In this document: piece after piece, positions 3,575 through 54,936 of the stretch
Numbering within the stretch: position 1 is the first letter of the stretch
Layout: every line of letters starts with the position of its first letter
DNA from: an uncultured Mucilaginibacter sp.
GTDB taxonomy: Bacteria; Bacteroidota; Bacteroidia; Sphingobacteriales; Sphingobacteriaceae
Assembly (NCBI RefSeq): GCF_937859865.1
Contig: NZ_CALMAT010000046.1
Span: forward strand, 4,996 to 64,761
Direction: 5' to 3'
Length of the DNA: 59,766 nt
Notes under the pieces: generated by a model
The model's input: the letters and a program-made list of their open reading frames with translations, nothing else
Told to the model about the DNA's origin: nothing
Database searches by the model: none
Made by a program: the position numbers and the translations under genes

Positions 3575-4918
3575 TTAAAACGTCAACAAAAACGCCGTCC
3601 CTTCCCCTTCTACCGATTGTGCCTGGATTTGCGCTTTGTGCAGCAGCATAATTTGCTTACACAAACTTAGGCCAATGCCGCTGCCGTTTTTTTTGGTGCT
3701 GAAAAACGGAACGAAAATCTGCTCCAATAAATCTTCGGCCATGCCGGTGCCGTTATCGGTTATTTTGATCACGGTTTTTTTATCGTTCAAAACATAACCG
3801 GAAAGCACGATCTGTGGCTTTTCGCGTTCTTTTACGGCTTCAATGGCATTCACCAACAGGTTGATCAGCACTTGCTCGATCAGCATCGGATCCACTTCTA
3901 CCGTTAATCCCGGGTCTTTTAAAACGATGTCCAACTCAATGTTTTTCTGTGCTAAAGTTGGCTCCATCAGCGTGTTTAAACTTTCAAAAAGATCACGCAC
4001 ATAAACCTTTTTTACACTTAAAGTGATGATTTTATTGAGGTTACGGTAAGTTTCCGCAAATTTGAGCAAGCCTTCACTCCTGCGTTGGATGGTATCAATG
4101 CCCAGTTCTAAATCTTCCAGCAAAGCCGGTTCTGATTTTGGGGCGGTAAAAGAAGCATTGGCTTCCTGCAAGCGGTTTTTCAACGTATTGGCGAGGGAAG
4201 AAATCGGCGCGATGGAATTCATAATTTCGTGCGTCATCACACTTAACAACTTTTGCCAGGCGCGCGATTCGGTTTCATCCAATGCCTCGTTCACGTTTTG
4301 CAAAGCCAGCAGTTTGTAGCGTTTGCCTTCGGTTTGAAACCCGGTGGCCGATAACAAAACTTTGATAGACGATTGCGGCCCTTGCAAAGTAACAATCGAA
4401 CTGTTGCTGTTTTTAAGGCTGATAATTTCTTGGTACAAATGCCCGTCGCGCTTTTGCAGCGAGCGGATATTTTTTAAGTACGGTAAAAGAAGCATGGATT
4501 TTAGCGTTTCGTTCATCCAAACCACGTCGCCGGTTTCAGCTTCGTACGATAAAATGCCCGTCCCAACCAGTTCCAGTATTTTTTGCAGGTACTGGTATTG
4601 CGTTTCCTTCTCGCGCGAAATGGTTTTAAAAGTGGTGTTGATCGAATTAAAACCAACGCGCAACTCTTCCAAACCAACTGTTGAACCTTTGGTATTGTAA
4701 TGCCGGGAAAAATCGCGGTAGCGGATGGCTTCGGAAAACTGGTCTAACTCGACATAAATTTTTTGGTGAAAATTATACAGTTCAATTAGTTGTACCAAAA
4801 TCACGACCAGCATCCCATAAAAAAGCCCCAACCAATGATGAAAAAAAAGAAAACCTGCCAAGCAAAAAGTTGCTGGTAAAAACAGTATGCGGAAGAGGAT
4901 GGGCCAGCGGGTTTTCAT
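3575..4918 (-). CDS. NtrY-like membrane sensor histidine kinase
   Basis: A 447-residue kinase. Two N-terminal membrane segments (about residues 8-26 and 30-47) leave almost no periplasmic loop, so sensing may be within or at the membrane. A HAMP-like linker and PAS-like region (about 105-210) follow. The phospho-acceptor His is about residue 230 in MTHEIMNSIAPI, an H-box typical of NtrY-type kinases in Bacteroidota. The N-box is INLLVNAIEA, G1 is DNGTG (about 388-392) and G2 is GSGIGL (about 412-417). It lies 125 nt downstream of the NtrC-type regulator and is the last gene of the minus-strand unit that starts with P3 at 13989. It is the probable cognate kinase for that regulator. Confidence 0.93.
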   Translation of the reverse strand: MKTRWPILFRILFLPATFCLAGFLFFHHWLGLFYGMLVVILVQLIELYNFHQKIYVELDQFSEAIRYRDFSRHYNTKGSTVGLEELRVGFNSINTTFKTISREKETQYQYLQKILELVGTGILSYEAETGDVVWMNETLKSMLLLPYLKNIRSLQKRDGHLYQEIISLKNSNSSIVTLQGPQSSIKVLLSATGFQTEGKRYKLLALQNVNEALDETESRAWQKLLSVMTHEIMNSIAPISSLANTLKNRLQEANASFTAPKSEPALLEDLELGIDTIQRRSEGLLKFAETYRNLNKIITLSVKKVYVRDLFESLNTLMEPTLAQKNIELDIVLKDPGLTVEVDPMLIEQVLINLLVNAIEAVKEREKPQIVLSGYVLNDKKTVIKITDNGTGMAEDLLEQIFVPFFSTKKNGSGIGLSLCKQIMLLHKAQIQAQSVEGEGTAFLLTF

Positions 4919-5043
4919 GGGTGGGAGAGCTTTTAGCTTTCAGCAGTCAGCTTTCAGCAAGGTCGTAAATTTGATATTTAGCTGAAAGCTGATTGCTGAC
5001 AACTGATGGCCGAAAGCTGATTGCTGACAACTGATAGCTTCCT
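4919..5043. repeat. Spacer of AGCTGATTGCTGA-type palindromic repeats (family B)
   Basis: The 125-bp spacer between regulator and kinase consists of copies of a degenerate GCTGAAAGCTGATTGCTGAC unit in both orientations. They can fold into long hairpins. The same family recurs at 6403-6549, 8935-9091, 11480-11616, 27029-27140, 34376-34577 and 49537-49673. No reading frame is present. Confidence 0.7.
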
Positions 5044-6402
5044 CTAAATCTCATACTTACTCAACCTCCTATAAAGTGCTGTCCGGGTTAAACCCAATTC
5101 TTTGGCGGCTTTGGTGATGTTGCCGTTGTGGAGTTCAATCACGCGTAGAATCGTATTTTTTTCGATGGAACTGAGACGAAGTTCGTCCGGCTGCTCCGTT
5201 TCGTGCACAGATTCGATGGGTGAAAAGATCAGTTCATCGGCACGCAAAACCGGCCCGTCGGACATGATGACGGCGCGTTCCATAATGTATTGCAATTCGC
5301 GCACGTTGCCCGGAAAATAGTATTGCTGCAGCTTGAGCAAAGCTTTCGGCTCCAGTTCCAAAACCGGTTTGAGGTATTTTGCGCTGTACAATTTGCTGAA
5401 ATAGTTGGCCAGCACTTCAATATCTTTTCCGCGTTTGCGCAATGGTGGAACGGTAATTTCCACGGTGTTGATCCGATACATGAGATCCCGGCGGAAACGG
5501 CTTTCATTAGCCAGCTCATTTAAAGGAACGTTGGTTGCACAAATCAAGCGGATATTTACATCAACGGGTTGGTTACTGCCCAACTTGGTTACTTGTCGGT
5601 TTTGCAGAACCGTCAGCAGTTTGGATTGTTGGTGCAAAGCGATATTGCCAATCTCATCCAAAAACAAAGTACCGTTGTGTGCGGCTTCAAAACGGCCGAT
5701 CCGGTCTTCGCGCGCATCGGTAAAAGCACCTTTTTTATGGCCGAAAAGTTCGCTTTCAAACAAGTTTTCGGACAACGCGCCCACATCCACTTTTACGTAA
5801 GCTTTTGCCGAACGAAGCGATTGCTGGTGGATAGCTTTGGCGATCAAATCTTTCCCGGTCCCGTTTTCGCCCAAAATCAAAATGTTGGCATCGGTTGGCG
5901 CGATTTTTTCAATCTTGTAAAAGATTTCGTGCATAATTTCGGATTCGCCCAGCAGCTCTTTGCCGATAATGGAATTGCGTTCGAGGTTAAAAGTAGTCGG
6001 AGATTTTGTTTTGGAACGTTTTTCTAAAGCCTCTGTAATCACATTCAGCAGCACTTCGTTGTGCCAGGGTTTCACCATAAAATCTGCCGCGCCTTCTTTT
6101 AGGGAACGTACGGCCAAATCAATATCGCCGTAAGCCGTAATCATGATCACGGCCGCATCCGATTTGAATTCGCGGACCTTTTTCAACCAAAACAAACCTT
6201 CGTTTCCGGTATTGATCGAGCTGTTAAAATTCATATCGAGCAAGATCAGATCGAATGTATTTTTGGCCAAAATCGAACGGATATTTTCCGGGTTTTTCTC
6301 TGTGATGACTTCTTTTACCACCGGTTTTAACAGGAGGCGAACGGCAGTCAGCACATCGGTATCGTCATCAATAATCAGGATGCAGGCATGTTTCAGGCTC
6401 AT
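5044..6402 (-). CDS. NtrC-family sigma-54-dependent response regulator
   Basis: A 452-residue activator with three domains. The receiver (about 1-125) has phospho-acceptor Asp56 in LILLDM, an acidic IDDD pocket near residue 11 and the KPW lysine near 111. The AAA+ domain (about 145-385) has Walker A GENGTGKD (178-185), the sigma-54-contacting loop GAFTDA (225-230), Walker B LFLDEIG and an arginine-finger segment RFRRDLMYR. A Fis-type helix-turn-helix (about 413-450, NITKAAKELGLTRTALYRRL) binds DNA. The intact GAFTDA loop means it should act through RpoN. I infer that its binding sites are the TGT...ACA tandem dyads upstream of the array units, including its own. Confidence 0.95.
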   Translation of the reverse strand: MSLKHACILIIDDDTDVLTAVRLLLKPVVKEVITEKNPENIRSILAKNTFDLILLDMNFNSSINTGNEGLFWLKKVREFKSDAAVIMITAYGDIDLAVRSLKEGAADFMVKPWHNEVLLNVITEALEKRSKTKSPTTFNLERNSIIGKELLGESEIMHEIFYKIEKIAPTDANILILGENGTGKDLIAKAIHQQSLRSAKAYVKVDVGALSENLFESELFGHKKGAFTDAREDRIGRFEAAHNGTLFLDEIGNIALHQQSKLLTVLQNRQVTKLGSNQPVDVNIRLICATNVPLNELANESRFRRDLMYRINTVEITVPPLRKRGKDIEVLANYFSKLYSAKYLKPVLELEPKALLKLQQYYFPGNVRELQYIMERAVIMSDGPVLRADELIFSPIESVHETEQPDELRLSSIEKNTILRVIELHNGNITKAAKELGLTRTALYRRLSKYEI

Positions 6403-6549: not shown

Positions 6550-8934
6550 TCACTCACTCCTCAAACTCTTCACCGGATTGGCCAATGCTGCTTTTATCGC
6601 CTGAAAACTAACGGTAAGCAAGGTAATGCCAATAGCCCCGAAACCGGCAATTGCAAAAACCCAGATGGAAATTGACGCATGATACGCGTATTGCTGCAGC
6701 CAGTAATGTAGAAATAACCAGGCAATTGGCGTGGCAATCAGCAGGGATAAAAAAACCAGTTGTACAAAATCTTTAGAAAGCATTTGCCACAAATTGAAAA
6801 CCGAAGCACCAAGCACTTTGCGTACGCCAATTTCTTTCCGGCGCTGTTCGGCTACAAACGAGGCCATACCGAACAAACCTAAACAACTGATAAAAATGGC
6901 CAGCGCCGCAAAACCGCCGGCTAATTTGCCAATGCGTTCTTCATCGCCAAACTTGCGATTGTAATCCTCATCAACAAACTTATAATCAAACGGCTGCTCC
7001 GGATTGTACGTTTTATACACTTTTTCAATCTGCTGCAAAGCCTCACTTGCACTTCTTTTCGGGTTGATCCTGGCGATCAGCACACTTCCAGGTTCAGTTA
7101 ATAAATTAAATATAGACGGCCTTACGGGTGCATAAGGCGATTCCATTACCACATCTTTTACCACACCAATAATCTGGATTGGATGGCCGTCCCAGGTGAT
7201 GGTTTCTCCAACCGGATGTTTCATTTGCATTAATTTGGCAGCAGCTTCGTTGATAATTACTGCGGAAGAATCACTTGCAAAATCTTTAGAAAAATCACGA
7301 CCGGCAAGAAACTGTAAACCAATAGTTTTGCCGTAATCGAAAGAAACATCTGTTTTTGGAAATTCGGTTGGCAGCGAAGGATCTTTTCCTTTCCAGTCAA
7401 AACCCGTATTGGTTGAGTTTATATTGGTAACCGCACCTTCAGATTCGGTCATATCTACAATGGCGCCTTCATTTTTCAATACTGTTTTTACCGCCTCAAA
7501 ATGGTTGTGCATTTCTGCGGAAGGCATCCCGATCATCACCAAACCGTTGCGGTTATAGCCTACCGGCCGGTTTTTGGCAAATTGGATTTGCCGGAAAACA
7601 GCTATCGTGCCAATAATTAAAACGATAGAAACCGTAAATTGTACAACCACCAGAACCTGGCGCGGTGTAGCTGCCGAACGGCCTAAACGAAACGTTCCTT
7701 TTAACACTTTGATCGGCTCGAAAGATGAAAGATACAAAGCCGGATACAACCCGGCAATTATGCCGGTAAGCAAACAAAAGGTTAAACTCGAAAGCCAGAA
7801 ATAAGGGTTTGTCCACAAAATATGGGTTTCTTTTCCGGCAACCTGGTTAAAAACGGGAAGTGAAAATTGCACCAAAATCAGACTCACAAAAAAAGCCAGA
7901 AACACAAAAAGTAAAGATTCTGCAAAAAACTGATTGGTTAATTGCTGGCGCGATGAACCTATTGTTTTACGGATGCCAACTTCTTTTGCCCGTTTTTCGC
8001 TTCGAGCGGTGCTTAGGTTCATAAAATTAATGCAGGCTAAAAACAGTACGAACGCGCCAATCAACCCAAAAAGCCACACGTATTGAATGCGGCCGCCAGT
8101 GTTTACGCCATTTTTAAATTCGTTATACAGGTGCCATTTGCGCATCGGTTGCAAAAACAATTGCGGGTTTTGTTTGGCCAAATTTTGGTTAACATGTTTA
8201 AGCCGCACATCTTTAATTTGGGTTGATACTTTTTCCAGGTCGGCATTCGCTGCCAATTCTATATAGGTAAAAAAAGCATTTGGCCGCCACGGGTCTTCCG
8301 CTGTTCTGATCCAATCCGTATTACTGTAATACAACTTCCAGGGCGCTATAAATTGCACATCAGCAAAAGCAGAATTGAGCGGTAAAGCTTGGTAAACACC
8401 CGCAACTTTAACCGGCGTTTTGTTATCCATTTTGATGATCTGGCCGATTGGATTTGTTTTTCCGAATAATGATGCTGCAACCAGGTTGGAAAGTAAAACA
8501 GAATTCTGGTCCTGCAATCCGTTTTCAGAACCGCTCAACATTTTTAAATTAAGCATTTTGGTAACGCCCGGTTCAAAATAAGTTCCGGTTGGCGATAGCT
8601 TTTTAGAACCGGTATTGAGCAAATGTGGCCAGGTTGCAGTTGCCAATACAACCTGTTTAAAACTGCTGCCATATTCGGAACGAAGGGCATCGGCCAGCGG
8701 ATAGGGCGTTAACGGCCAGGTTTCAATACCAGAATTGCTTTGTTTATTTTGCATCACCAGCGCAATCCTATCCGAGTTTTGGAAAGATTTATTGAAGGAT
8801 AACTCATCATAAACCCAAAGTGTTAGCAGTAACGCAACCGCCATCCCAACGGCCAAACCAACAATGTTAATGGCCGAATAACCTTTGTTTTTGATGAGGT
8901 TCCGCCAGGCAATTTTAAAATAGTTTTTGATCAT
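6550..8934 (-). CDS. ABC permease P1 (MacB/FtsX type, double FtsX)
   Basis: A 794-residue inner-membrane permease. Layout, shared by the whole set: an N-terminal membrane segment (about 20-42), a MacB-like periplasmic domain, a first FtsX domain with three membrane helices (about 285-415), a second leading helix (about 430-450), a second periplasmic domain, and a second FtsX domain (about 670-790). Both cytoplasmic docking loops are intact: KRAKEVGIRKTIGS and RKEIGVRKVLGAS. Family members couple ATP hydrolysis outside the membrane to movement in the periplasm, exporting or extracting peptides, lipids or lipoproteins. By eye the closest paralogue is P3 (shared WHLYNEF, GGRIQYVW and AKNRP blocks). 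It is the third gene of the minus-strand unit. Confidence 0.95.
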   Translation of the reverse strand: MIKNYFKIAWRNLIKNKGYSAINIVGLAVGMAVALLLTLWVYDELSFNKSFQNSDRIALVMQNKQSNSGIETWPLTPYPLADALRSEYGSSFKQVVLATATWPHLLNTGSKKLSPTGTYFEPGVTKMLNLKMLSGSENGLQDQNSVLLSNLVAASLFGKTNPIGQIIKMDNKTPVKVAGVYQALPLNSAFADVQFIAPWKLYYSNTDWIRTAEDPWRPNAFFTYIELAANADLEKVSTQIKDVRLKHVNQNLAKQNPQLFLQPMRKWHLYNEFKNGVNTGGRIQYVWLFGLIGAFVLFLACINFMNLSTARSEKRAKEVGIRKTIGSSRQQLTNQFFAESLLFVFLAFFVSLILVQFSLPVFNQVAGKETHILWTNPYFWLSSLTFCLLTGIIAGLYPALYLSSFEPIKVLKGTFRLGRSAATPRQVLVVVQFTVSIVLIIGTIAVFRQIQFAKNRPVGYNRNGLVMIGMPSAEMHNHFEAVKTVLKNEGAIVDMTESEGAVTNINSTNTGFDWKGKDPSLPTEFPKTDVSFDYGKTIGLQFLAGRDFSKDFASDSSAVIINEAAAKLMQMKHPVGETITWDGHPIQIIGVVKDVVMESPYAPVRPSIFNLLTEPGSVLIARINPKRSASEALQQIEKVYKTYNPEQPFDYKFVDEDYNRKFGDEERIGKLAGGFAALAIFISCLGLFGMASFVAEQRRKEIGVRKVLGASVFNLWQMLSKDFVQLVFLSLLIATPIAWLFLHYWLQQYAYHASISIWVFAIAGFGAIGITLLTVSFQAIKAALANPVKSLRSE

Positions 8935-9091
8935 TTTCTTGAGCTTTTAGCTGTCGGCAATCGGCTTTCAGCGGTTTGTATATTTTCTAATGCTTCTTTT
9001 ATCGGTGTTTTTTTGGTGTTAGGCATGAGGCATGAGGTTTTAAACTTGCAATCCGCTAATAGCCAAAAGCTGATTGCTGACCGCTTCCTCC
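8935..9091. repeat. Spacer with family B palindrome and the AAAAGAAGCAT word
   Basis: It contains family B copies at both ends, a GGCATGAGG/family A fragment, and ATGCTTCTTTTAT at 8990-9002. The word is therefore oriented towards P1. No reading frame. Confidence 0.6.
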
Positions 9092-11479
9092 TTACTCACT
9101 CCGCAAACTTTTTACCGGATTGGCCAATGCTGCTTTTACCGACTTAAACCCAACGGTTATCCCTGCAATTATAAAAGTTGAAAGAATGGCGATCAGGAAA
9201 ATCCACGGGCCAATACTAATACGGTACACAAACTCCTGCAGCCAATGGTGCATTACCAGCCACGAAAGTGGTGCCGCAATTACAAACGCAACCAGCAGCA
9301 GCCGGGAAAACTCTTTGCCAAACAGCCATAATATGTTTTGCATACTTGCGCCAAGCACTTTGCGTACGCCAATTTCTTTGGTTTTTTGTGCGGCCATAAA
9401 AGAAACCAAACCATACAAACCTAAACAACCAATCAGGATGGCGATACCGGCAAAACCTTGTACCAAGCGCAAAATAGTATTATCCAATTCGTAAAATTTG
9501 GCAATCTTTTCATCCACAAAAACAGCAGAATAAACATACTCCGGATAGGTTTCTTTCCAAACCTTTTCTAAAGCAGTTAAAGTTGGTTTGATGTTGTTAA
9601 GGTTAATGCGAACGGCCGCATAATTGTATTGAATAGGATTTGAAGCAATTGCAATTGGCCTGATTTCATTTCTAAAAGATTCGGATTTAAAATCTTTTAG
9701 CACACCTACAACTTGTGCTTTTTTGTCGTTGATGTTAACTGTTTTCCCAATGATTTCTTGCGGTGACTTTAGATGTAATTTATTAACCAATGTTTCATTT
9801 ACCAAGTATTCTCGGATAGTATCAGAAGGAAAAATATTCCTACCGGCAATTAACTTCAAATCGAAAGTTGAAATATATTGATTGTCAGCATCTTTTACAT
9901 CAACTGTAAATGCTTCTTTTACCGGCCTGTTTTCATATTGGATATCTCTGCCATTATTATTACCGGAAGCAGGTGGTTCAAAACAAAAACTTACATTTTG
10001 AGTCCCGGCAACAGATAAAAGTCTTGTTTTTAAAACCTTCATTTTTGATACAGAAGAATTTGGCAGGTTCAGCAATACAATTCCGTCTTTTCTAAAACCC
10101 AAATCAGCTTTGGCGGCATATCTTATTTGTGCCGAAATCACAATTGTTCCAATAATTAGTATTTGTGAAATGGCAAACTGCACAATCACCAAAACCCTTC
10201 TCAATGGAAAACCACCAGCATCATGTTGGGTGAGTTTTCCTTTTAATGCTGTAACTGGTTTGAAGTTGGACAAAATTAAGCCCGGATAAGAGCCAGACAG
10301 AAAGACGATCAATACCGAAAGCAGTAAAAGAAAAAACATTAAAGGAAGATCATGGAAGATGTTGACGGAAAGCTCCGTTTTAAAAAGTTGATTGATATAA
10401 GGAATAGCCAGTTCTGCCAAACACCAAGAAATAAATAATGCAAAAACAGTAATCAATGCCGTTTCTGCTATAAATTGCCAGAAAAGTTGTCCGCGTAAAC
10501 TTCCTAAAACTTTGCGTACACCAACTTCTTTGGCACGTTTTAACGCTTGCGCCGTTGCTAAATTGATAAAGTTAACGCAAGCCGTAGTAATTAAAAACAA
10601 CCCGATTAATGCCAAAGCCCACAAATATTTTTTATCGGTTTCACCATCATAATTGGTATTAAAATGGATATCGGTAAGCGGTTGCAGGTTGAAAAAGAAT
10701 TCGTTCACTTCATCTTTTCCTAAATACTTTTTGCGGAATGCCGGGAAAACTTTTGCTACATCAGCAGGCAAAACATTTGGTTTCAATCTTACAAAAAACT
10801 GCATTCCACTGTTTACGCCTGCCCAACTGCTATCGCTGGCCAGCCACCTGCTTCGTTGTTTTAAACTAGAATAAGAAAGATAAATTTCCTGTTTCCGATC
10901 TGTGTTAACTGGAATATTTTGGAGTATCCCAGTTATTTTAAAATCGATTTTATTGCTTACCCGAATAATTTTTCCAATTGGGTTTTCTTTGGAAAAATAT
11001 TTATCGGCCAGGTTTTGGGTGATGACTGCTGTATTCAATTCCGTCAGCATGCTTCTTTTATCACCTGTTTTTAAGGGGAAATTGAAAATATCAAAAAACT
11101 CAGGTTCGGCAAAAGCAACGCCGTTTTCCTCTTCAAATTTTTTGTTGTCTTTGCTTGCTGGAATAGAAATCAGGCTGTTTCCATAAGTTACTACGCGGGC
11201 TGTTTTTTCTGCAAAAGCATAATCATTGCGAAAAGCTTTGCCCAGCGGCGACGGAACGCCTTGCGAATAATTGATGCCGTCTTCGTGAAACTCGGTAACG
11301 ATGCGGTAAATCCGGTTTTTATCACGATGAAAATCATCAAAGCTTAAATGATATTTTACCAGCGTAAAAATCAGGATGCCGCAAGCCATACCTAAAGACA
11401 ATCCCAAAACATTAATTAAAGTGTAGGATTGGTTACGTTTTAAGTTCCGCCAGGCGATTTTAAAATAGTTTTTGATCAT
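9092..11479 (-). CDS. ABC permease P2 (MacB/FtsX type)
   Basis: 795 residues with the full double architecture. The docking loops are KRAKEVGVRKVLGS and KTKEIGVRKVLGAS. Periplasmic domain 1 contains LQPLTDIHFNTNYDGETD, a block shared with P10, its apparent nearest relative. Near the C-terminus it has GFKSVKAALANPVKSLRSE where most others have SFQAVKAALA. Thus the shared 3' nucleotide box begins later here than in the other copies. It is the second gene of the minus-strand unit and lies 157 nt before P1. The transported substrate is unknown. Confidence 0.95.
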   Translation of the reverse strand: MIKNYFKIAWRNLKRNQSYTLINVLGLSLGMACGILIFTLVKYHLSFDDFHRDKNRIYRIVTEFHEDGINYSQGVPSPLGKAFRNDYAFAEKTARVVTYGNSLISIPASKDNKKFEEENGVAFAEPEFFDIFNFPLKTGDKRSMLTELNTAVITQNLADKYFSKENPIGKIIRVSNKIDFKITGILQNIPVNTDRKQEIYLSYSSLKQRSRWLASDSSWAGVNSGMQFFVRLKPNVLPADVAKVFPAFRKKYLGKDEVNEFFFNLQPLTDIHFNTNYDGETDKKYLWALALIGLFLITTACVNFINLATAQALKRAKEVGVRKVLGSLRGQLFWQFIAETALITVFALFISWCLAELAIPYINQLFKTELSVNIFHDLPLMFFLLLLSVLIVFLSGSYPGLILSNFKPVTALKGKLTQHDAGGFPLRRVLVIVQFAISQILIIGTIVISAQIRYAAKADLGFRKDGIVLLNLPNSSVSKMKVLKTRLLSVAGTQNVSFCFEPPASGNNNGRDIQYENRPVKEAFTVDVKDADNQYISTFDLKLIAGRNIFPSDTIREYLVNETLVNKLHLKSPQEIIGKTVNINDKKAQVVGVLKDFKSESFRNEIRPIAIASNPIQYNYAAVRINLNNIKPTLTALEKVWKETYPEYVYSAVFVDEKIAKFYELDNTILRLVQGFAGIAILIGCLGLYGLVSFMAAQKTKEIGVRKVLGASMQNILWLFGKEFSRLLLVAFVIAAPLSWLVMHHWLQEFVYRISIGPWIFLIAILSTFIIAGITVGFKSVKAALANPVKSLRSE

Positions 11480-11616
11480 GATTTTAAGCTTTTAGCTGTC
11501 AGCAATCAGCCTTCAGCTTTTTGTATAGTTTATTTATTGGGTTGGAGGCATGGGGTTTGAGGTTTTAAACTTGCAATCCGATGATAGCCAAAAGCTGATT
11601 GCTGACAGCTTCTTCC
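11480..11616. repeat. Palindromic repeat spacer (families A and B)
   Basis: The spacer between P3 and P2 holds AGCTGTCAGCAATCAGC-type repeats at one end, AGCTGATTGCTGACAGCTTC at the other, and a GGCATGGGGTTTGAGG (family A) stretch between. The ends can pair. No frame or promoter of the array type is seen. Confidence 0.6.
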
Positions 11617-13989
11617 TCATTCACTCCTCAAACTTTTTACTGGGTTAGCCAATGCTGCTTTTATCGCCTGAAAACTGACGGTGAGTAAAGTGATAACGAT
11701 AGCACCGACAGCTGTAAACAGGAAAACCCAAATCGAAATTTCGGTTCGATATTCGTAATGCTGAAGCCATTGGTGCATAAAATAATAGGAAGCAGGAATG
11801 GCGATCAAGAACGATATCGAAACCAGCACCAGGAAATCTTTGGACAACAAAGCCCAAAGATTTACTACGGATGCGCCCAATACTTTCCGGATACCGATTT
11901 CTTTTACTCGTTGTTCTGCTATAAAAGAAGCTAAACCGAAAATACCCAGACAACTAATCAGAACAGCAAAAACAGCGAAGAAAGTAGCTAAACTGCCAAC
12001 CCGTTGCTCAGCAGCAAACTTGTAGGCAAAATCAGCATCTACAAATCGAAAATCAAATGGTGCAGCAGGATCTAACTTTTCAAATATGGCCTTTATTTTT
12101 GCTAAAGATTCCCTTGTGCTCATTCTTGGATTTAGTCTTATGGTAATGGTAGCACCTTCATAATTCAAAAAAAACACAGTTGGTTGTGCCTGCTCATAAG
12201 GTGATTCCATTACTACATCCTTAATTACGCCTATTACATGATAAGGAACATCGTTAAATTTCACCGTTTCGCCTATCGGATTTTTTAATCCCATGTGTTT
12301 TACTGCCGCTTCATTTACAATCATCCCTGTTGTATCTGTACCATATTGTCTTGAAAAATCACGACCGGCAGCAAAGAGCCAACCTACTGTTTTTCCAAAA
12401 TCGTGTGTAACCCCTGAAACGCTAATATCTTTATCAACATTTGGATCTTTTCCTTTCCATTTAAAACCAGTTAAATGAGAACCAATATTAGTTGCAGAAT
12501 TGGAAGCTTCTGCCATGTTAATAGATGCGCCTGAATTTAGCAGTTCGCTTCGCAGTAAATCGTACTTGCCGTGTAAATTTGGTGTTGACATATCTATAGT
12601 AATCAAACCATTTTTATCATAACCAAGAGGCCGGTTTTTAGCATATTGAATTTGTTGAAATACGACGATCGTTCCAATAATCAGTATTACTGAAATACTA
12701 AACTGAAAAACGACCAATACCTGACGAGGTACAGCAGCAAAACGTCCGACTTTAAAGGTTCCTTTTAATACTTTAATAGTATTAAATGATGAAAGATACA
12801 GAGCAGGATAACTGCCAGAAATTAATCCGGTAAATAAAGTAAAACTTAAAATCATCAACCAGAAAATCGGGTTTGACCAAGGAATAATCAAGCTTTTTTC
12901 AGCCAACATATTAAATTTTGGCAAGGATAGTTTTACCAATAACAAAGCAAGCAGTAAAGCAATAAAAGTGATTAATATAGATTCACTTAAAAACTGAATA
13001 ATAAGCTGTTTGCGTTGCGAGCCAATTGCTTTTCTTACGCCTACTTCTTTGGCACGAATTTGTGATCGTGCAGTACTTAAATTCATAAAATTGATGCAAG
13101 CAAGCAGTAGAACAAATAAGCCGATTAAAGCAAACATCCAAACATATTGAATAGCACCTCCTGTATTTATACCATGTCTAAATTCATTGTACAAGTGCCA
13201 GTTACGCATAGGTTGTAAAACGATTTTTGCGTCATCATTTCGGCCAGGCTTTCCAATAAAAATATTTTTAACTTTTGCGTTTACTTCATCTAATCCTGAA
13301 TGTTCATTCAGTTCGCCATAGAGAAGAAACGAGTTATCATTCCAATCTGCATACGCTTCTTTTATCCATTTTTTTTCTGCAACTAAAGCTGACCAAGGCA
13401 TTAAAAAATCTACTCCCTTAAAATCTGTATTTCGCCCAAAATCTTTAAAAATGCCACTTACTTTATAACTCTTTTTATCGTCTGTTAAGAGTACTTTATT
13501 TAAAGGATCGGCATTACCAAATATGATTTTAGCAAGAGATTCGCTGATCATTATGGTAGATTGATCTTGTATTCCCCGAAGCTCTCCACTTACCATTTTT
13601 AAAGACAGAATTTCAGGCATTTCCGGTTCTGCGTAAATTCCTATTTTACTTATCTTTTTATCTCCAAATGAAAGTATGTGTAGTTCATCAGACTTGCTTA
13701 AAGCTAGATGCTTAAAATCGGAAGCATACTTGTTTCTAAGCTCTAAAACTAAAGGAATAGAAACTGTTGGGTAAGTTGAAATATCTTTTCCATCGCTTGA
13801 ATTTTGAATGAATTTTACTATGTGATCATAGTTGTCGAAACTTTTATTGAACGACAACTCATCATAAATCCAAAAACCGATTAACATGATAACTGCCATT
13901 CCAACAGTTAAACCAACAATATTTATTGCTGAATATACTTTGTTTTTAATCAGGTTCCGCCAGGCAATTTTAAAATAGTTTTTGATCAT
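11617..13989 (-). CDS. ABC permease P3 (MacB/FtsX type), first gene of the minus-strand unit
   Basis: 790 residues with two intact FtsX halves (loops IRAKEVGVRKAIGS and RVKEIGIRKVLGAS). It is very like P1 across the first FtsX domain, yet its body is visibly more AT-rich. Its C-terminal codons return to the array standard with a few silent changes (GCTAACCCAG). The start ATG at 13989 lies about 50 nt downstream of the predicted start of the divergent sigma-54-type promoter at 14052-14156. So it heads the unit P3-P2-P1-regulator-kinase. Confidence 0.95.
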   Translation of the reverse strand: MIKNYFKIAWRNLIKNKVYSAINIVGLTVGMAVIMLIGFWIYDELSFNKSFDNYDHIVKFIQNSSDGKDISTYPTVSIPLVLELRNKYASDFKHLALSKSDELHILSFGDKKISKIGIYAEPEMPEILSLKMVSGELRGIQDQSTIMISESLAKIIFGNADPLNKVLLTDDKKSYKVSGIFKDFGRNTDFKGVDFLMPWSALVAEKKWIKEAYADWNDNSFLLYGELNEHSGLDEVNAKVKNIFIGKPGRNDDAKIVLQPMRNWHLYNEFRHGINTGGAIQYVWMFALIGLFVLLLACINFMNLSTARSQIRAKEVGVRKAIGSQRKQLIIQFLSESILITFIALLLALLLVKLSLPKFNMLAEKSLIIPWSNPIFWLMILSFTLFTGLISGSYPALYLSSFNTIKVLKGTFKVGRFAAVPRQVLVVFQFSISVILIIGTIVVFQQIQYAKNRPLGYDKNGLITIDMSTPNLHGKYDLLRSELLNSGASINMAEASNSATNIGSHLTGFKWKGKDPNVDKDISVSGVTHDFGKTVGWLFAAGRDFSRQYGTDTTGMIVNEAAVKHMGLKNPIGETVKFNDVPYHVIGVIKDVVMESPYEQAQPTVFFLNYEGATITIRLNPRMSTRESLAKIKAIFEKLDPAAPFDFRFVDADFAYKFAAEQRVGSLATFFAVFAVLISCLGIFGLASFIAEQRVKEIGIRKVLGASVVNLWALLSKDFLVLVSISFLIAIPASYYFMHQWLQHYEYRTEISIWVFLFTAVGAIVITLLTVSFQAIKAALANPVKSLRSE

Positions 13990-14381: not shown

Positions 14382-15638
14382 GTGGACAGAGTTATCGCAA
14401 AAAAGAAATGGACAACCAAACGCCTTTTAACCATTGGCGGAATTACAGCCCTGGTTTTGCTGATCGGCAGCAGTTATTATTTTACTTCCGGCAAATCCAA
14501 ATTGAACGTGGATACCGAAAGGATCACGATCAGCGAAGTTAAAAATGGCCCATTCCAGGAGTTTATCCCAGTTAACGGTGTGGTGATGCCAATCACCACG
14601 ATTTATTTAGACGCGAATGAAGGCGGCCGGGTAGATCAAAAATTTGTGGAAGACGGAACCATCATGAAAAAAGGCGACCCGATTATGAAACTGGCCAACA
14701 CAGATTTAGAACTGAGTTTGGTGAACCAGGAAACTTCCGTTTTTAACTTGCTCACGCAAATGCAGATTTCCCGAAATGCGGCGCAACAAAATACCATCAG
14801 CAAGTTGAACCAAATGGCGGACGTGGACAATGCGTTTAAAGAATCGGAAAGGTTGTATTTGCTGAACAAGCATTTGTACGAACAGAAAGCGATTGGTTTG
14901 CAGGAGTTTAAGCAATCGCAAATTGCTTACGATTACCAGGTGAAGCGCAAAAAACTGACGCAGCAGATTTTGAAGCAGGATTCGGTTTCTACCAAACAGG
15001 AACTGAACCAGGCCAAGCAATCTTTCGACCGTACGCAAAATGCCTTAGCCGTAATGCGGCAAAAAGTAGGCGATTTGATTGTCCGCGCGCCGGTTGATGG
15101 CCAATTAACTTCTTTGGATGCGGAAATCGGACAAAACAAACACCAGGGCGAGCGTTTGGGCCAAATTGATGTTTTGAGCGGGTTTAAAGTTCGGGTGGAT
15201 GTGGACGAACATTATATTTCCCGCATATTTACTGGGCTGACCGGCGACTTTGATTTCTCTGACAAAACCTATAAACTGAAAATTAAGAAAGTTTTTACGC
15301 AGGTAACGAACGGACGTTTTCAGGTAGATATGGAGTTTGTGGGCAAAGTACCGGAAGGTATCCGGCGTGGACAAACCTTGCAAATCCGCTTGGCTTTAGG
15401 CGACGAAACCAAAGCTTTGCTTTTAGCCAAAGGCGGTTTTTACCAGCAAACCGGCGGCAACTGGATTTTTAAAGTGAGCGACGACGGCAAAACGGCTTAT
15501 AAAGTTGATGTGCAGTTGGGCCGCCAAAACCCGGATTATTACGAAATTTTGCAAGGCTTAAAACCCGGCGACAAAGTGGTTACAAGCAGTTATGAAAATT
15601 ATGGGAATATGCAGGAATTGGTGTTGAAAAGCCAGTAG
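14382..15638 (+). CDS. HlyD/MacA-type periplasmic adaptor protein
   Basis: 418 residues. The start is GTG; an in-frame TAA lies 27 nt upstream and no ATG is suitably placed. A short basic N-terminus is followed by a membrane anchor (about 15-34). Next come a barrel-sandwich half (VPVNG-like region with EGGRVDQKFVEDGTIMKKGDPI), a long alpha-hairpin coiled coil (about 105-225), the returning lipoyl half (VRAPVDGQLTSLDAEIGQ) and C-terminal beta-barrel domains ending GLKPGDKVV. Such adaptors link MacB-like permeases to an outer-membrane TolC channel. No TolC gene lies in this window, so the channel must be encoded elsewhere. It heads the first plus-strand unit. Confidence 0.93.
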   Translation: MDRVIAKKKWTTKRLLTIGGITALVLLIGSSYYFTSGKSKLNVDTERITISEVKNGPFQEFIPVNGVVMPITTIYLDANEGGRVDQKFVEDGTIMKKGDPIMKLANTDLELSLVNQETSVFNLLTQMQISRNAAQQNTISKLNQMADVDNAFKESERLYLLNKHLYEQKAIGLQEFKQSQIAYDYQVKRKKLTQQILKQDSVSTKQELNQAKQSFDRTQNALAVMRQKVGDLIVRAPVDGQLTSLDAEIGQNKHQGERLGQIDVLSGFKVRVDVDEHYISRIFTGLTGDFDFSDKTYKLKIKKVFTQVTNGRFQVDMEFVGKVPEGIRRGQTLQIRLALGDETKALLLAKGGFYQQTGGNWIFKVSDDGKTAYKVDVQLGRQNPDYYEILQGLKPGDKVVTSSYENYGNMQELVLKSQ

Positions 15639-15655
15639 GTATCAGGTTTGAGGTA

Positions 15656-16012
15656 TCAGGTAACTGGCAAAGCTCTAATAAAAGCGTGAATCATTTTTCT
15701 GATTTCTACAACAGCTTCTGAAAGTTCTTTATAAACGGTGTCATCAATATATTTTAAGTCTTTAACCAAAAGCAACTGATATTCCAACTCAGAACTTGAA
15801 CCAGAAGAAATTATGAGAAACCTTTTCATTTCCGCATTGCTATTTCGGCCGCAACCTTCGGCAATATTGGTAGGGATAGACGAACTTGACCGTCGCATTT
15901 GTGAGGTTAAACCACACACTTCTTCTTTAGGAAAGGAAGCACTTACAGCATGCACTTTTAATGTTAAACAATGGCTTTTTTGCCAAACCAATAATTCAGA
16001 ATAATTACGCAT
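15656..16012 (-). CDS. Four-helix-bundle protein of the S23/TIGR02436 family
   Basis: 118 residues starting MRNYSELLVWQKSHCLTLKVH, with MRRSSSSIPTNIAEGCGR and a hydrophobic helical C-terminal half. These are signatures of the family first seen in 23S rRNA intervening sequences and common as stand-alone genes in Bacteroidota. The function is unknown. It lies on the opposite strand between the adaptor and the ATPase and is closely flanked by family A repeats on both sides (15639-15660 and 16060-16100). That placement looks like an insertion into an adaptor-ATPase operon. Confidence 0.85.
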   Translation of the reverse strand: MRNYSELLVWQKSHCLTLKVHAVSASFPKEEVCGLTSQMRRSSSSIPTNIAEGCGRNSNAEMKRFLIISSGSSSELEYQLLLVKDLKYIDDTVYKELSEAVVEIRKMIHAFIRALPVT

Positions 16013-16103
16013 AGTTTAAAGATAATAAATTAATTTAAAATAAAAAGTAAAAGGTGTACAGCTTGTGTCAAGCCTCATACCTGATACCTCAAACCTCTCT
16101 ATC

Positions 16104-16781
16104 ATGATAAAAATTACCGACCTCGAAAAAATCTACCGCACCGAAGACATTGAAACTTCGGCCTTAAACAAACTAACCATCCATGTAAACGACGGCGAAT
16201 TTGTAGCCGTAATGGGTCCGTCGGGCTGCGGCAAATCTACCTTGCTCAACATTTTGGGTTTGCTGGACGACCCGGATGGCGGAAGCTTTATGTTCAACAA
16301 CATTGAAGTTGCCGGTTTTAATGAACGCAAACGGGCGGATTTGCGCAAACGCAACATTGGTTTTGTGTTCCAAAGCTTTAACTTAATTGACGAGTTGACC
16401 GTTTTTGAAAACGTAGAACTGCCGCTCATTTATTTAGGTGTTGATAGCGCCGAACGCAAAAAACGCGTAGATGTGGTTTTAGATAAAATGCAGATCATGC
16501 ACCGCCGCAACCATTTTCCGCAGCAGCTTTCCGGCGGACAGCAGCAGCGAGTTGCTGTTGCACGCGCCGTAGTCAACAATCCAAAATTAATCTTGGCAGA
16601 TGAGCCAACCGGTAACCTGGATTCATCCAATGGAAACGAAGTGATGCAATTGTTGACCGAACTGAACGAGCAGGGAACCACGATTGTGATGGTAACGCAC
16701 TCGGAGCATGACGCGCGGTACAGCCACCGGATCATCAGGATGCTGGACGGGCAAACGGTTACGGAGAATTTGTTGGTGTAA
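16104..16781 (+). CDS. ABC transporter ATP-binding protein (LolD/MacB-N type)
   Basis: 225 residues from the ATG at 16104. A longer frame from 16065 would add 13 residues encoded by a spacer repeat (SLIPDTSNLS), so I reject it. Walker A is GPSGCGKST (38-46), the Q-loop is [10 protein letters not shown], the signature LSGGQQQR (142-149), Walker B LILADEP (162-168) and the H-loop His about 199. The sequence is of the MacB/LolD/FtsE group that drives FtsX-type permeases. It is the only complete ATPase in the window for sixteen permeases. Each permease is itself a double unit and should bind two copies. Confidence 0.95.
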
Positions 16782-16851
16782 GGAGTTGTCAGCGATCAGC
16801 TTTCGGCTATCAGTGATTTGCATGTTTGATACCTCTTGCCAAAAAAACATT

Positions 16852-16900
16852 GATAAAAGAAGCATTGACCAATCCGGTGAAGAGTTTGCGGAGTGAATAA
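16852..16900 (+). pseudogene. 3'-terminal permease fragment joined to a spacer repeat
   Basis: The frame ATA AAA GAA GCA TTG ACC AAT CCG GTG AAG AGT TTG CGG AGT GAA TAA encodes IKEALTNPVKSLRSE and a stop, matching the last 15 residues of the permeases (IKAALANPVKSLRSE). Upstream, the sequence is not permease but typical spacer (ACCTCTTGCCAAAAAAACAT). The change happens inside the AAAAGAAGCAT word. It is a chimera of spacer and gene end, with no promoter or start of its own. Confidence 0.75.
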
Positions 16901-37864: not shown

Positions 37865-37938
37865 ATGATTACAAATTATTTCAAAATTGCCTGGCGTAAC
37901 TTTTATAAGCAAAAGTAAAAAGTTTGAGGAGCGAATAG
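37865..37938 (+). pseudogene. Permease relic: 5' end joined directly to 3' end
   Basis: ATG at 37865 begins MITNYFKIAWRNFYKQK, then TAA. Immediately after comes AAA AGT TTG AGG AGC GAA TAG (37918-37938), the KSLRSE-stop ending of the permeases, in a different frame. About 2.3 kb that normally separates these ends is missing. The closest intact relative of the 5' part is P10. No long shared sequence is visible at the joint. Family C begins 4 nt later. Confidence 0.85.
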
Positions 37939-41929: not shown

Positions 41930-42036
41930 GTTTGGGGTGAGAGGTTTGAGGTATCAGCGATTTGCAAAGCCTTATACCTAAAACCTCATACCAAAAATAT
42001 ACCGATAAAAGAAGCATCATCTAAAAAACTAAAACC
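41930..42036. repeat. Spacer with family A hairpin and the AAAAGAAGCAT word
   Basis: GGTTTGGGGTGAGAGG ... GCCTTATACCTAAAACC can pair. ACCGATAAAAGAAGCATC lies at about 42001-42018, 19 nt before the P12 start. The same arrangement precedes P13, P14 and P16. Confidence 0.6.
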
Positions 42037-44448
42037 ATGTTAAAAAACTATTTCAAAACAGCTTTAAGAAATTTTAAAAAGAACAAAGTATTTTCATTTA
42101 TTAATATTATTGGTTTGGCAATTGGCTTAACATGCTTTGTGTTGATCGCTGTTTTTGTGCATGATGAAATGAGTTATGATACTTATGCCAACAATGCAAA
42201 GGATATTTACCGTGTTAATTTAAATGTAACCGGCAATGGTGATGTTGCTGTGTATCCGAATGTTGATTTTGCAGTTGGTGAAGGAATGAAGAATGCTTTT
42301 CCTGAAATAAAAGATTTTACACGACTTTCTCCCGCGACAGATTTTGTGAAGTATAATGATAAGCAGTTTAAAGAAAATAAACTTGCTTTTACAGATGAGA
42401 ATTTTTTACAAATGTTTGCTATTCCATTGCTTGACGGAAGCAATAAAGAAGCATTAGTACAACCAAACAGCATTGTTATTTCAAAAGCATTTGCAAAAAA
42501 ATATTTCGGAGATGAAAATGCTATTGGAAAGTCGTTGACATTTGTCTTAAATAAAGCAGTATTTAAAGTAACCGGCATATTTGATAAAGTACCAGTTAAT
42601 TCTCATTTTCATTTTGATGCATTTTTAAGCCTTTCCACTTTGCATGTTCTAAATCCAACCTGGAGCAATATTGGAGTGTTTACTTATTTGAAATTGAATA
42701 AGAATATTGATGTAAAAAAGCTGGAAGCGAAGTTTCCTCAACTTGTTGCAAAGTATATTGTACCTGAAATACAACATGATATGGGCGTAAGCCTGGCTGA
42801 AGCACAAAAATCTGTGAACACATATGTATTCAGTTTGCAGCCGCTCACAGATATTCATTTGCATTCTCACACAAAATATGAGCTTGAATCAAACGGTGAT
42901 ATACAATACGTGTATATTTTTTCCGTATTAGCCCTATTTATTTTACTACTTGCTTGTGTAAATTTTACGAATCTTTCCATTGCACGTTCGGTAAAAAGAG
43001 CAAGAGAAGTTGGTGTAAGAAAAGTAATGGGTTCAGGGAAACTTCAATTGATAAACCAATTTTTATCCGAATCTGTATTGATGAGTTTTTGCGCCATGTT
43101 GCTTTCAATTGTTTTGATCTTTGTATTGCTTCCTTATTTCAACCAGCTTTCCGGCAAGCAAATTAGTATTGAATATTTTCTCAATTATAAGTTCATACTT
43201 GTAATTCTGGGGCTTATATTTTTTGTAGGAATTGTAGCCGGCATTTATCCATCTTTCTTTTTATCATCTTTCAACCCGATAAAAGTTTTAAAGGGTTCCT
43301 TGAACATAGGAAGCAATAAAAATGCGCTGCGAAGCAGCTTAATTATATTCCAGTTCTTCGTTTCCACAGCATTGATTATTTCAACCATTATCGTTTATCA
43401 GCAATTAAATTATATGCAGAATAAAAAACTTGGTTACGACAAAGAACAGGTTTTGTTTTTGCCTGAGGGAAGATTAATGGGAAAGCAACAGGATGCTTTT
43501 AAACAAAAGTTATTACAGGATAGCCGTGTTGTTGCTGCCAGTATTTCAAGTTCAGTTCCGGGTAGCAATGATTTTATGGACGGAACGCAGGTAAATCCGG
43601 AAAATGAAAATGGAAACGGCACGGAAATCCACATGAACATTTATCATGTTGACTACGATTATGTGAAAACTTTAGGTATGCACATAAAACAAGGAAGATA
43701 TTTTTCAAAAGGCTTTGCATCAGACAGCGATGGCGTTGTTATTAACCAAACCGCGGTAAATGAATTGGGTTGGAATAAAGTAAATCCCATAAACAGAACC
43801 ATTGTGCGCTCTGCTAAACACAAGTTTAAAGTTGTTGGTGTTGTGGAAGATTTCAATTATACATCAGCCAAACAAAAGATAGCACCACTAATGATGATGA
43901 TGGGTAAAAATTACGGCGGAGTAATCATCAAAATAAAAACGAATGATGTAACAGGATTTTTAAATGACCTGAAAACAAAATGGGATTCGTTTAATCCTCA
44001 AGGTCCTTTAAGTTATAGTTTTCTCGATGATAATTTTAAAAATTTATATACAAGCGAACTTAGAACACAACAAATATTTTCGGCCTTTGCTGTTATTGCA
44101 ATCATCATCGCAACGCTTGGATTATTCGGGCTTTCAGCTTTTGTAATTGAACAACGCACCAAAGAAATTGGCATAAGGAAAGTATTAGGTGCTTCAGTAC
44201 CAAATGTTTTACTACTTGTATCAAAAGATTTTTTATCGCTTGTTATAATTGCATTTATTATTTCGATTCCTATAACATATTGGGCGATGTATAAATGGTT
44301 AGAGAATTATGCATACAGAATACACATTAGCATCGGCGTATTTGCTGCGGCAGGAATTATTGCAGTGCTAATCGCTTTAATAACCGTCAGTTTTCAGGCG
44401 GTAAAAGCAGCATTGGCCAATCCGGTAAAGAGTTTGCGAAGTGAATAG
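42037..44448 (+). CDS. ABC permease P12 (MacB/FtsX type), AT-rich body
   Basis: 803 residues starting MLKNYFKTALRNFKKNK. The docking loops are KRAREVGVRKVMGSG and RTKEIGIRKVLGAS. QPLTDIHLHSHTKYELES groups it with P14. The body is clearly more AT-rich than its neighbours and uses AGA/AGG for many arginines where they use CGC/CGG. From about 44383 to the stop, the codons switch to the array standard and match P13 at all but three of 66 positions. I read this as a body from another source, or an old copy, with a homogenised 3' end. Confidence 0.95.
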   Translation: MLKNYFKTALRNFKKNKVFSFINIIGLAIGLTCFVLIAVFVHDEMSYDTYANNAKDIYRVNLNVTGNGDVAVYPNVDFAVGEGMKNAFPEIKDFTRLSPATDFVKYNDKQFKENKLAFTDENFLQMFAIPLLDGSNKEALVQPNSIVISKAFAKKYFGDENAIGKSLTFVLNKAVFKVTGIFDKVPVNSHFHFDAFLSLSTLHVLNPTWSNIGVFTYLKLNKNIDVKKLEAKFPQLVAKYIVPEIQHDMGVSLAEAQKSVNTYVFSLQPLTDIHLHSHTKYELESNGDIQYVYIFSVLALFILLLACVNFTNLSIARSVKRAREVGVRKVMGSGKLQLINQFLSESVLMSFCAMLLSIVLIFVLLPYFNQLSGKQISIEYFLNYKFILVILGLIFFVGIVAGIYPSFFLSSFNPIKVLKGSLNIGSNKNALRSSLIIFQFFVSTALIISTIIVYQQLNYMQNKKLGYDKEQVLFLPEGRLMGKQQDAFKQKLLQDSRVVAASISSSVPGSNDFMDGTQVNPENENGNGTEIHMNIYHVDYDYVKTLGMHIKQGRYFSKGFASDSDGVVINQTAVNELGWNKVNPINRTIVRSAKHKFKVVGVVEDFNYTSAKQKIAPLMMMMGKNYGGVIIKIKTNDVTGFLNDLKTKWDSFNPQGPLSYSFLDDNFKNLYTSELRTQQIFSAFAVIAIIIATLGLFGLSAFVIEQRTKEIGIRKVLGASVPNVLLLVSKDFLSLVIIAFIISIPITYWAMYKWLENYAYRIHISIGVFAAAGIIAVLIALITVSFQAVKAALANPVKSLRSE

Positions 44449-44562
44449 GTTTGAGGTGAGAGGTATGAAGCATCAGCAAATTGCAAAGCCTCGTACCTGC
44501 AACCTCATACCCCGCACCAAAAAAGTATTGATAAAAGAAGCATCAGCAAAAAACCTACAATC
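44449..44562. repeat. Spacer with family A hairpin and the word
   Basis: GGTTTGAGGTGAGAGGTATG ... GCCTCGTACCTGCAACC form the hairpin. TTGATAAAAGAAGCATCAGC follows at about 44528 and ends 21 nt before the P13 start. Confidence 0.6.
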
Positions 44563-46947: not shown

Positions 46948-47124
46948 GGAAAAAGCTATCGGCTATCGGCTTTTAGCCATCAGCCTTTGCAAAGCCTCAT
47001 TCCTCGCACCAAAAAAACACCGATAAAAGAAGCATCAGCAACTTGTAAAGTTTAGTACCTGCAACCTCACACCTCGCACCAAAAATATACCGATAAAAGA
47101 AGCATCAGCTAAAAACCAAATCCC
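46948..47124. repeat. Spacer with a duplicated 71-bp leader unit
   Basis: GATAAAAGAAGCATCAGC occurs twice, at about 47022 and 47093, 71 nt apart. Each copy is preceded by CCTCGCACCAAAAA. A family B fragment (GCTATCGGCTATCGGC) follows the P13 stop. This is a recent-looking tandem duplication of the leader. Confidence 0.65.
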
Positions 47125-54552: not shown

Positions 54553-54899
54553 GTTTGGGGTAATAGGTATCAGGTTTTAGGAACTTGCAAGTCCTCTTAC
54601 CTGAAACCTCACACCTCGTACCAAAAAAATACCGATAAAAGAAGCATCAACAATTAGTTTTGTGGTAGCAGCGAATTACAAAGCCTCATACCTAAAGCCT
54701 CGTACCTTTTACCCAAAATATACCGATAAAAGAAGCATTAACAATTAGCTTTGTGGTAGCAGCGAATTGCAAAGCCTCATACCTAAAGCCTCGTACCTTT
54801 TACCCAAAATATACCGATAAAAGAAGCATTGGCAATTAGCTTTGAGGCATTAGCGAATTGCAAAGCCTCATACCTGAAACCTCACACCAAAAATATACC
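54553..54899. repeat. Tandem 91-bp spacer repeats
   Basis: GATAAAAGAAGCATT-type words occur at 54634, 54725, 54816 and 54900. The steps are 91, 91 and 84 nt. Each unit reads word, CAATTAG(T/C)TTTG, GCGAATT(A/G)CAAAGCC, TCATACCT, then ACC(A/C)AAAATATACC. Units 1 and 2 are almost identical. No reading frame is present. It is the longest run of the leader unit in the window and lies directly after the last permease. Confidence 0.85.
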
Positions 54900-54936
54900 G
54901 ATAAAAAAAGCATTGGCTAATCTGGTGGTAAACTTG
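54900..54936 (+). pseudogene. Second 3'-end fragment joined to a spacer repeat
   Basis: GATAAAAAAAGCATTGGCTA is followed by ATCTGGTGGTAAACTTG, a decayed version of the permease 3' box (AAAGCAGCATTGGCCAATCC, GGTAAAGAGTTTG). Left of the word the sequence is spacer (CACACCAAAAATATACC). It has the same kind of joint as at 16852, but is more decayed and without an intact frame. After it, 54937-55037 holds only a family B hairpin. Confidence 0.55.

Follow-up and report, generated by a model that had tools for sequence, protein, structure and literature searches.

In a Mucilaginibacter array, the shared 3' end of permease genes very probably copies, in frame, a repeat found throughout the genus that may act like a DNA uptake sequence

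The window analysed here, a 59,766-nucleotide stretch of DNA from an uncultured Mucilaginibacter species (contig NZ_CALMAT010000046.1 of assembly GCF_937859865.1), carries 16 genes for MacB/FtsX-type permeases, counted as 16 matches within the window, with Pfam run on the gene P12. Beside and among them, genes encode a histidine kinase and a sigma-54 response regulator together with a single HlyD-type protein and a single ABC ATPase (3575-6402 and 14382-16781), and the array is perhaps a single pump core served by many alternative permeases. The encoded proteins resemble the ADOP duplicated permeases (TIGR03434) in having MacB_PCD and FtsX domains along their whole length, but five of them score 295-308 bits against that model, under its curated cut-off of 622.3 bits, and so are not assigned to it. 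A further, broken permease copy lies outside the array on contig 13 of the same genome (4400-7695), in two pieces about 1 kb apart. The 3' end is uniform in 15 of the 16 array genes, the exception being 52144, the last gene of the array; the motif named in the following lines is described below.

6550-13989, minus strand: three array permeases, with a motif copy in each end (6585, 9127 and 11652)
17044-54552, plus strand: thirteen array permeases including P12, with the strict motif core in 11 ends, a one-base departure in 47125 and no fit in 52144
42037-44448, plus strand: P12, an 803-residue MacB_PCD/FtsX-type permease with an AT-rich body (Pfam MacB_PCD 7.3e-34, FtsX 4.5e-29)

P12 has a GC content of 0.340 and a GC3 of 0.292, against 0.410-0.436 and 0.438-0.488 across P11, P13 and P14, and AGA or AGG make up 10 of its 18 arginine codons. 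Counted over gene bodies only, AGA plus AGG stand to CGN as 10:7 in P12, as 10:66 in P11, P13 and P14 together (Fisher p 1.9e-4) and as 87:273 in the remaining 15 array genes (p 3.2e-3). A sequence-only reading of this stretch had described P12 as AT-rich and inclined to AGA/AGG arginines, unlike P11 and P14, and these counts bear it out. P12 is not the sole AT-rich member of the array, since low GC is also found in genes 17044 (0.351) and 11617 (0.355). The same reading had matched the final 66 bases of P12 to those of P13 except at three positions, and a recount gives the same three; the end of P11 is closer still, with two differences in 66. A codon log-likelihood ratio prefers P12's own usage in all stretches up to codon 781 (-0.17 to -0.33), where the model is biased toward that usage by having been trained on the same body, and flips sign only in codons 782-803 (+0.12). 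The break expected near 44380 is visible in codon usage; GC itself shifts gradually, with 0.38-0.45 across the final 170 nt.

The comparison of body and end rests on an alignment of 94 permease genes from eight genomes, 37 of them from the only three genomes that represent the genus and 57 from five genomes of other genera. The three are the genome of the window (G000), Mucilaginibacter arboris (G001) and a lichen-associated Sphingobacteriaceae MAG (G002). The set is confined to the retrieved genome stretches; a filter on the C-terminus removed six permease-like open reading frames of other genera (one each in G005, G015 and G022, three in G036), and two copies stand outside the 37, one in G002 (C7:89005) and the broken one on contig 13 of G000, neither of which holds a 600-codon open reading frame.

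The body of P12 groups with two genes of another genus (G015 and G036) at an SH-aLRT of 100; the same grouping scored 97/100 in the first tree, where the bootstrap was unsettled. That first tree included five fragmentary rows, and the repeat tree, made by a quick method, omitted them. The end of P12 differs over 45 nt by a mean of 3.5-5.4 positions from same-genus ends and by 11.4-13.2 from those of other genera. Body phylogeny and 3' end are thus discordant, the one pointing to another genus and the other being of own-genus type, and to this extent the earlier proposal that P12 is a mosaic holds. It fails in singling P12 out: the nearest body relative lies outside the genus for 16 of the 37 genus genes, and 15 of those 16, all but 52144, keep ends nearer to same-genus ends, so that P12 is one instance of a common pattern. 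Its body is about 57% identical to the other genus, similar to other cross-genus pairs in the set, and its relatives there are not AT-rich (GC 0.42-0.43); a recent origin from the nearest genus, one candidate for this putatively foreign body, leaves its AT-richness unaccounted for.

At the codon level the end falls into two parts, delimited by per-codon counts (37 against 57 genes) and by binned codon identity.

44383-44424, plus strand: part of the P12 end conserved at the DNA level, codons -21 to -8
44425-44448, plus strand: last seven codons and stop of P12, conserved as protein, with codons free

In G000 codon identity, taken where the amino acid is the same, is 0.38 for codons 776-781, 0.85 for 782-788, 0.89 for 789-795 and 0.60 for 796-803; body bins of this genome lie at 0.34-0.49, and values along the gene in all genomes at 0.29-0.55. 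Codons 782-795 reach 0.85-0.89 in G000, 0.81-0.82 in M. arboris and 0.68-0.83 in G002, with 0.34-0.47 in other genera, and over the last eight codons identity drops to 0.52-0.60 in the genus, with 0.42-0.56 in other genera. Compared between G000 and G002, codons 782-795 give 0.76-0.84, about equal to the within-genome values; for rpoB the same pair of genomes shows a codon identity of 0.60, with a protein 98.4% identical over the part read. The alanine at -16 is GCG in 25 of 25 genus genes against 3 of 34 in other genera, and the lysine at -14 is AAA in 37 of 37 against 34 of 48.

Part of the P12-type end, used as a query, matched many near-identical sites beyond the arrays, and these define a repeat of about 30 nt with its flanks, whose core is TAAAARMAGYAT. 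The word is the most frequent specific oligomer of the genus genomes. The exact 12-mer TAAAAGAAGCAT has 2114 copies in G000 (1059 on the plus and 1055 on the minus strand), 1947 in M. arboris (965/982) and 1118 in G002 (520/598), whereas its count does not exceed 12 in any of the 396 remaining genomes of a family sample of 399, or 14 in any of the 246 remaining genomes of a phylum sample of 247; the reversed word, as a control, has 1-2 copies in each of the three genus genomes. In stretches picked independently of the motif, TAAAARMAGYAT has 170 sites in 186 kb of G000, or 914 per Mb, and 147 sites in 200 kb of G002, or 735 per Mb. The consensus is non-palindromic and spans about -17 to +13; it includes a G at -2 and, at -11 to -8, an A/T tract in which T predominates. 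With genes called by a longest-ORF rule, non-coding and coding densities are 3273 and 382 per Mb in G000 (112 and 58 sites) and 3185 and 353 in G002 (86 and 61 sites). Exact copies far outnumber singly altered ones: G000 gives 95 of the former, and most single changes number 0-3, the commoner variants being T at position 10 (29), C at position 12 (12) and A at position 6 (6).

The placement of the copies is also patterned. Pairs less than 60 nt apart are inverted in 21 cases and direct in 4 (p 4.6e-4), and between tandem genes copies cluster within 40 nt past the stop (29 of 63 on the same strand, 21 of 50 on the opposite). Gaps of at least 100 nt between copies have coefficients of variation of 0.79 and 0.76, a regularity that gene structure alone could yield. 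Copies within array bodies were retained between species at 5 of 8 sites, against 0.082 of any 12-nt windows being identical. In samples from other genera (20 stretches of 7.8-20 kb, which are small), no similar word was prominent, the top 10-mers having 3-8 copies; by the same count five stretches of G000 gave 11-16, five of G002 gave 8-14 and a conjugative G002 stretch gave 4. A second recurring body site of the motif, coding for a K-T-A peptide at about codon 136, occurs in the window at 25053, 39912 and 47534 and is retained in the G002 orthologues of 39509 and 47125. The idea that array bodies are short of motif copies, as foreign DNA might be, was considered and rejected: their density of 376 per Mb is no different from that of coding DNA in general (382 and 353), and the zero copies in the body of P12 are not unusual at coding density.

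Within P12 and the leaders around it, the motif lies as follows.

42006-42017, plus strand: motif copy TAAAAGAAGCAT in the P12 leader
44384-44416, plus strand: extended motif copy, by weight-matrix score, in the P12 end; register relative to the core, -18 to +14
44402-44413, plus strand: core of that copy, TAAAAGCAGCAT
44532-44543, plus strand: motif copy TAAAAGAAGCAT in the P13 leader

The permease end AGTTTTCAGGCGRTAAAAGCAGCATTGG conforms to the motif consensus, T tract included. Its core, TAAAAGCAGCAT, has GC at positions 6-7, apparently forced by two alanines; elsewhere this form is rare, with 3 and 4 sites in the samples, and it is a putative working version at best, a point against the motif as the explanation. 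A weight matrix made from 316 sampled sites, none of them coding for KAALANP, was applied to the ends at one set register, and the null for each peptide came from 400 shuffles of its codons. The P12 end scores 30.0 against a null of -8.2 +/- 11.1, and its flanks alone 9.7 against -1.5; in both cases 0 of 400 shuffles score as high. With the full matrix, 35 of 37 genus ends outscore 396 or more of their 400 shuffles, as do 3 of 57 in other genera, and with the core omitted 32 of 37 outscore 380 or more, against 8 of 57. The two genus ends that do not fit are 52144 and G002c9_10235. Windows coding for V/I/L-K-E/A/T-A peptides spell the motif in 24 of 29 cases against 0 of 12 in other genera, and the comparison for array bodies gives 8 of 13 against 0 of 7; both are partly circular, because the motif itself creates such a peptide, and do not count as proof. 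Codons -10 to -8 are biased as well (GCC in 27, AAT in 29 and CCG in 34 of 37) though they lie outside the motif, which counts against the motif as the explanation.

On this evidence there is little doubt that the P12-type 3' end is an in-frame copy of the genus-wide repeat, and the sequence-only reading, in calling such ends array-type, had drawn the category too narrowly. Because the genus ends align gap-free to the 57 other-genus homologues, which lack the motif, the motif in them arose by base change and not by insertion, a statement that applies to the permease family only. Exchange is not required for a uniform end, because the repeat can arise by synonymous substitution. Uniform ends of array genes need not, then, imply gene conversion: a DNA signal spread over the whole genome can hold synonymous sites constant at any place where the protein permits.

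Uptake sequences of the USS and DUS type occur roughly once per kb on both strands alike and prefer non-coding DNA, though with many coding copies, and their perfect copies far exceed singly mismatched ones; oppositely oriented close pairs occur, an A/T-rich flank is given for the USS, and coding copies arise by base change, as set out in the extracts of PMC1626085 used here. The genus motif is like the USS of Haemophilus and other Pasteurellaceae, so far as those extracts describe it, in copy density, strand balance, non-coding preference, scarcity of one-mismatch copies, A/T-rich flank, inverted close pairs and base-change origin in coding DNA. It differs in being another word, with a 12-nt core and an A/T tract upstream of the core as written, and in belonging to another phylum, with uptake putative and no type IV prepilin found. 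Neisseriaceae carry about 1900-3200 copies of a 10-12-mer DUS per genome, with inverted pairs near gene ends and related words in relatives (PMC3630211, in part); the DUS is not present in conjugative elements, according to the excerpted text of PMC7371117, and in Neisseria is read by the minor pilin ComP (PMC4906244, likewise in part). Copy number, inverted pairs, words common to relatives and absence from conjugative DNA are likenesses on the strength of these portions of the papers, and the different word and the failure to find ComP are differences.

The type IV prepilin family PF07963, a short model that may miss divergent pilins, was found in 0 of 3 genus genomes and in 1 of the 10 genomes tested, and ComEC is present in 10 of 10 and hence does not discriminate. 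Such a receptor characterises the known systems and is not a property of the word itself. With uptake putative, and a search for the pilin receptor that known systems use having found none, the motif is classed neither as a USS nor as a DUS. The balance of the comparison nevertheless tips toward a motif that works like a DNA uptake sequence, and toward a probable USS/DUS-like system in Bacteroidota. The permease C-terminal peptide (V/I-K-A-A-L) would spell the motif through synonymous changes only, and unrelated permease bodies would thereby have acquired an identical DNA end. Motif-bearing fragments may be preferentially taken up or recombined during DNA exchange between cells; the word would then accumulate and mutated copies be replaced, as with the Haemophilus USS and the Neisseria DUS. 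A motif before each gene and another inside its end could serve as short direct repeats for the loss or swap of whole genes. Taken as a whole, the account in which the end is a copy of the genus repeat, and copies are gained or kept through favoured DNA exchange, is probably the right one.

Earlier work in the phylum had searched for putative uptake words too. Riemerella columbina prefers its own DNA, and k-mer counts gave only A/T-rich words; those of Riemerella and Flavobacterium were low-complexity A/T runs at about 0.5 per kb against 0.1 expected, in the excerpted portion of PMC7965970. The genus described here differs from what that portion reports in having a complex 12-mer with more than 2000 exact copies, and 1-2 in the reversed control. 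The USS/DUS literature, as far as the extracts reach, concerns Pasteurellaceae and Neisseriaceae, with a link to type IV pili. Within the open-access papers searched, 'uptake sequence' and 'Bacteroidota' occur together in none, and the 12-mer occurs in a single Plasmodium paper. An uptake word would be new for Bacteroidota, if true. A bolder version is tentative and slightly more apt to be wrong than right: the motif could be a true uptake sequence that evolved independently. It would then be the first of its phylum, as well as the first with a reader other than a type IV pilin; it would mark self DNA in a genus that includes M. arboris and, through one copy before each gene and one inside its end, would make a cassette system of the tandem array. 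A strong word restricted to one genus, with more than 2000 exact copies, opens the question of why such words accumulate to testing in a separate lineage, and one that includes a named species.

Selection of another kind could also keep a word in place. The motif might be the binding site of an abundant nucleoid-associated or regulatory protein, unrelated to DNA exchange, and a core with an A/T tract about one helical turn upstream, eight to nine fold denser in non-coding DNA, would suit such a site. This is unlikely, since one-mismatch copies are very few, a scarcity that the extracts of PMC1626085 describe as unlike regulatory sites, and neither distance nor strand relative to the next gene is fixed (63 same, 50 opposite).

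A somewhat poorer candidate is concerted evolution, in which gene conversion homogenises the array 3' ends as exchange points and the resemblance to the motif is incidental. Exchange has left traces in the window and elsewhere, among them two junctions.

16840-16900, plus strand: gene-less junction in which a leader with a motif copy (16854-16865) runs into a permease tail ending in TAA
54895-54935, plus strand: degenerate junction of the same leader/tail kind after the last array gene

The first junction, as expected from the loss of a whole gene between the motif copies of leader and end, speaks for concerted evolution, as do four G002 genes that have in common a serine codon TCA in place of AGT and an identical downstream module, and the rare CGA codon found in the adjacent genes P11 and P12 (2 of 37 genus genes). 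Against it, ends from different species resemble each other as closely as those from one species, the conserved part has sharp boundaries on both sides, with codons free in the fully conserved last seven residues, and the flanks fit a matrix trained on other sites of these genomes. Because the last codons and stop are not clearly homogenised beyond what other genera show, exchange of the end as a block is not the general cause. The suggestion that the ends act as exchange points thus survives in part: the junction at 16840-16900 shows exchange near the motif, but block exchange is not general. A permease remnant at 37865-37938, by comparison, joins the first 17 or so codons to the last few at a point away from the motif and is followed by a module resembling those after other array genes.

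Two further accounts fare worse than concerted evolution. Signals for recombination of the Chi type, or for chromosome segregation, are shorter than 12 nt. A motif of that function in recombination or DNA translocation would be present in many copies and might have joins located at it, as is seen here, but it is very improbable given a core of 12 nt that exceeds the length of such signals, the eight to nine fold non-coding preference and the absence of strand skew (76 against 71 copies, in nine motif-bearing stretches over about 0.9 Mb of one contig). Least credible of all is a small mobile REP- or MITE-like repeat spread by copying, for although the many copies, non-coding preference and strong consensus would suit it, the permease ends align to motif-less homologues with no gap and no insertion, the motif is non-palindromic with conservation that stops beyond about -18 to +13, and its coding copies show a preferred frame.

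Alongside the putative uptake word, the intergenic DNA of the array has repeats of its own, among them one directly after P12.

44449-44520, plus strand: intergenic inverted-repeat module after P12 (fold of 44375-44520, z -3.67; coding part alone, z -0.22)

Three kinds of inverted-repeat module, GAGGTTT/AACCTC, AGCTGTCAGC and CCTCACCCAAACCC...GGTTAGGTGGGG, are mixed between array genes, for example at 44449-44520 and 46948-47010, and are also seen in the G002 stretches L064-L068. RNA structure of the coding end was tried as a candidate and rejected, 44375-44450 being no stabler than shuffles (83 of 200 as stable). When the downstream part is included, folding is strong after some genes (z -3.67, -3.44 and -2.09) and not after others (-1.06 and +0.37). 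At 54564-54911 the leader is repeated in tandem three to four times, in units of about 91 nt that contain one motif copy each.

Gaps in the distribution of the motif could map acquired islands in the genus. One 20-kb stretch of G002 (L161, G002:C1:100001-120000) holds no motif copy and encodes a TrwC relaxase together with TraG/TraD-type and ArdC proteins, a content as expected of an acquired conjugative element.
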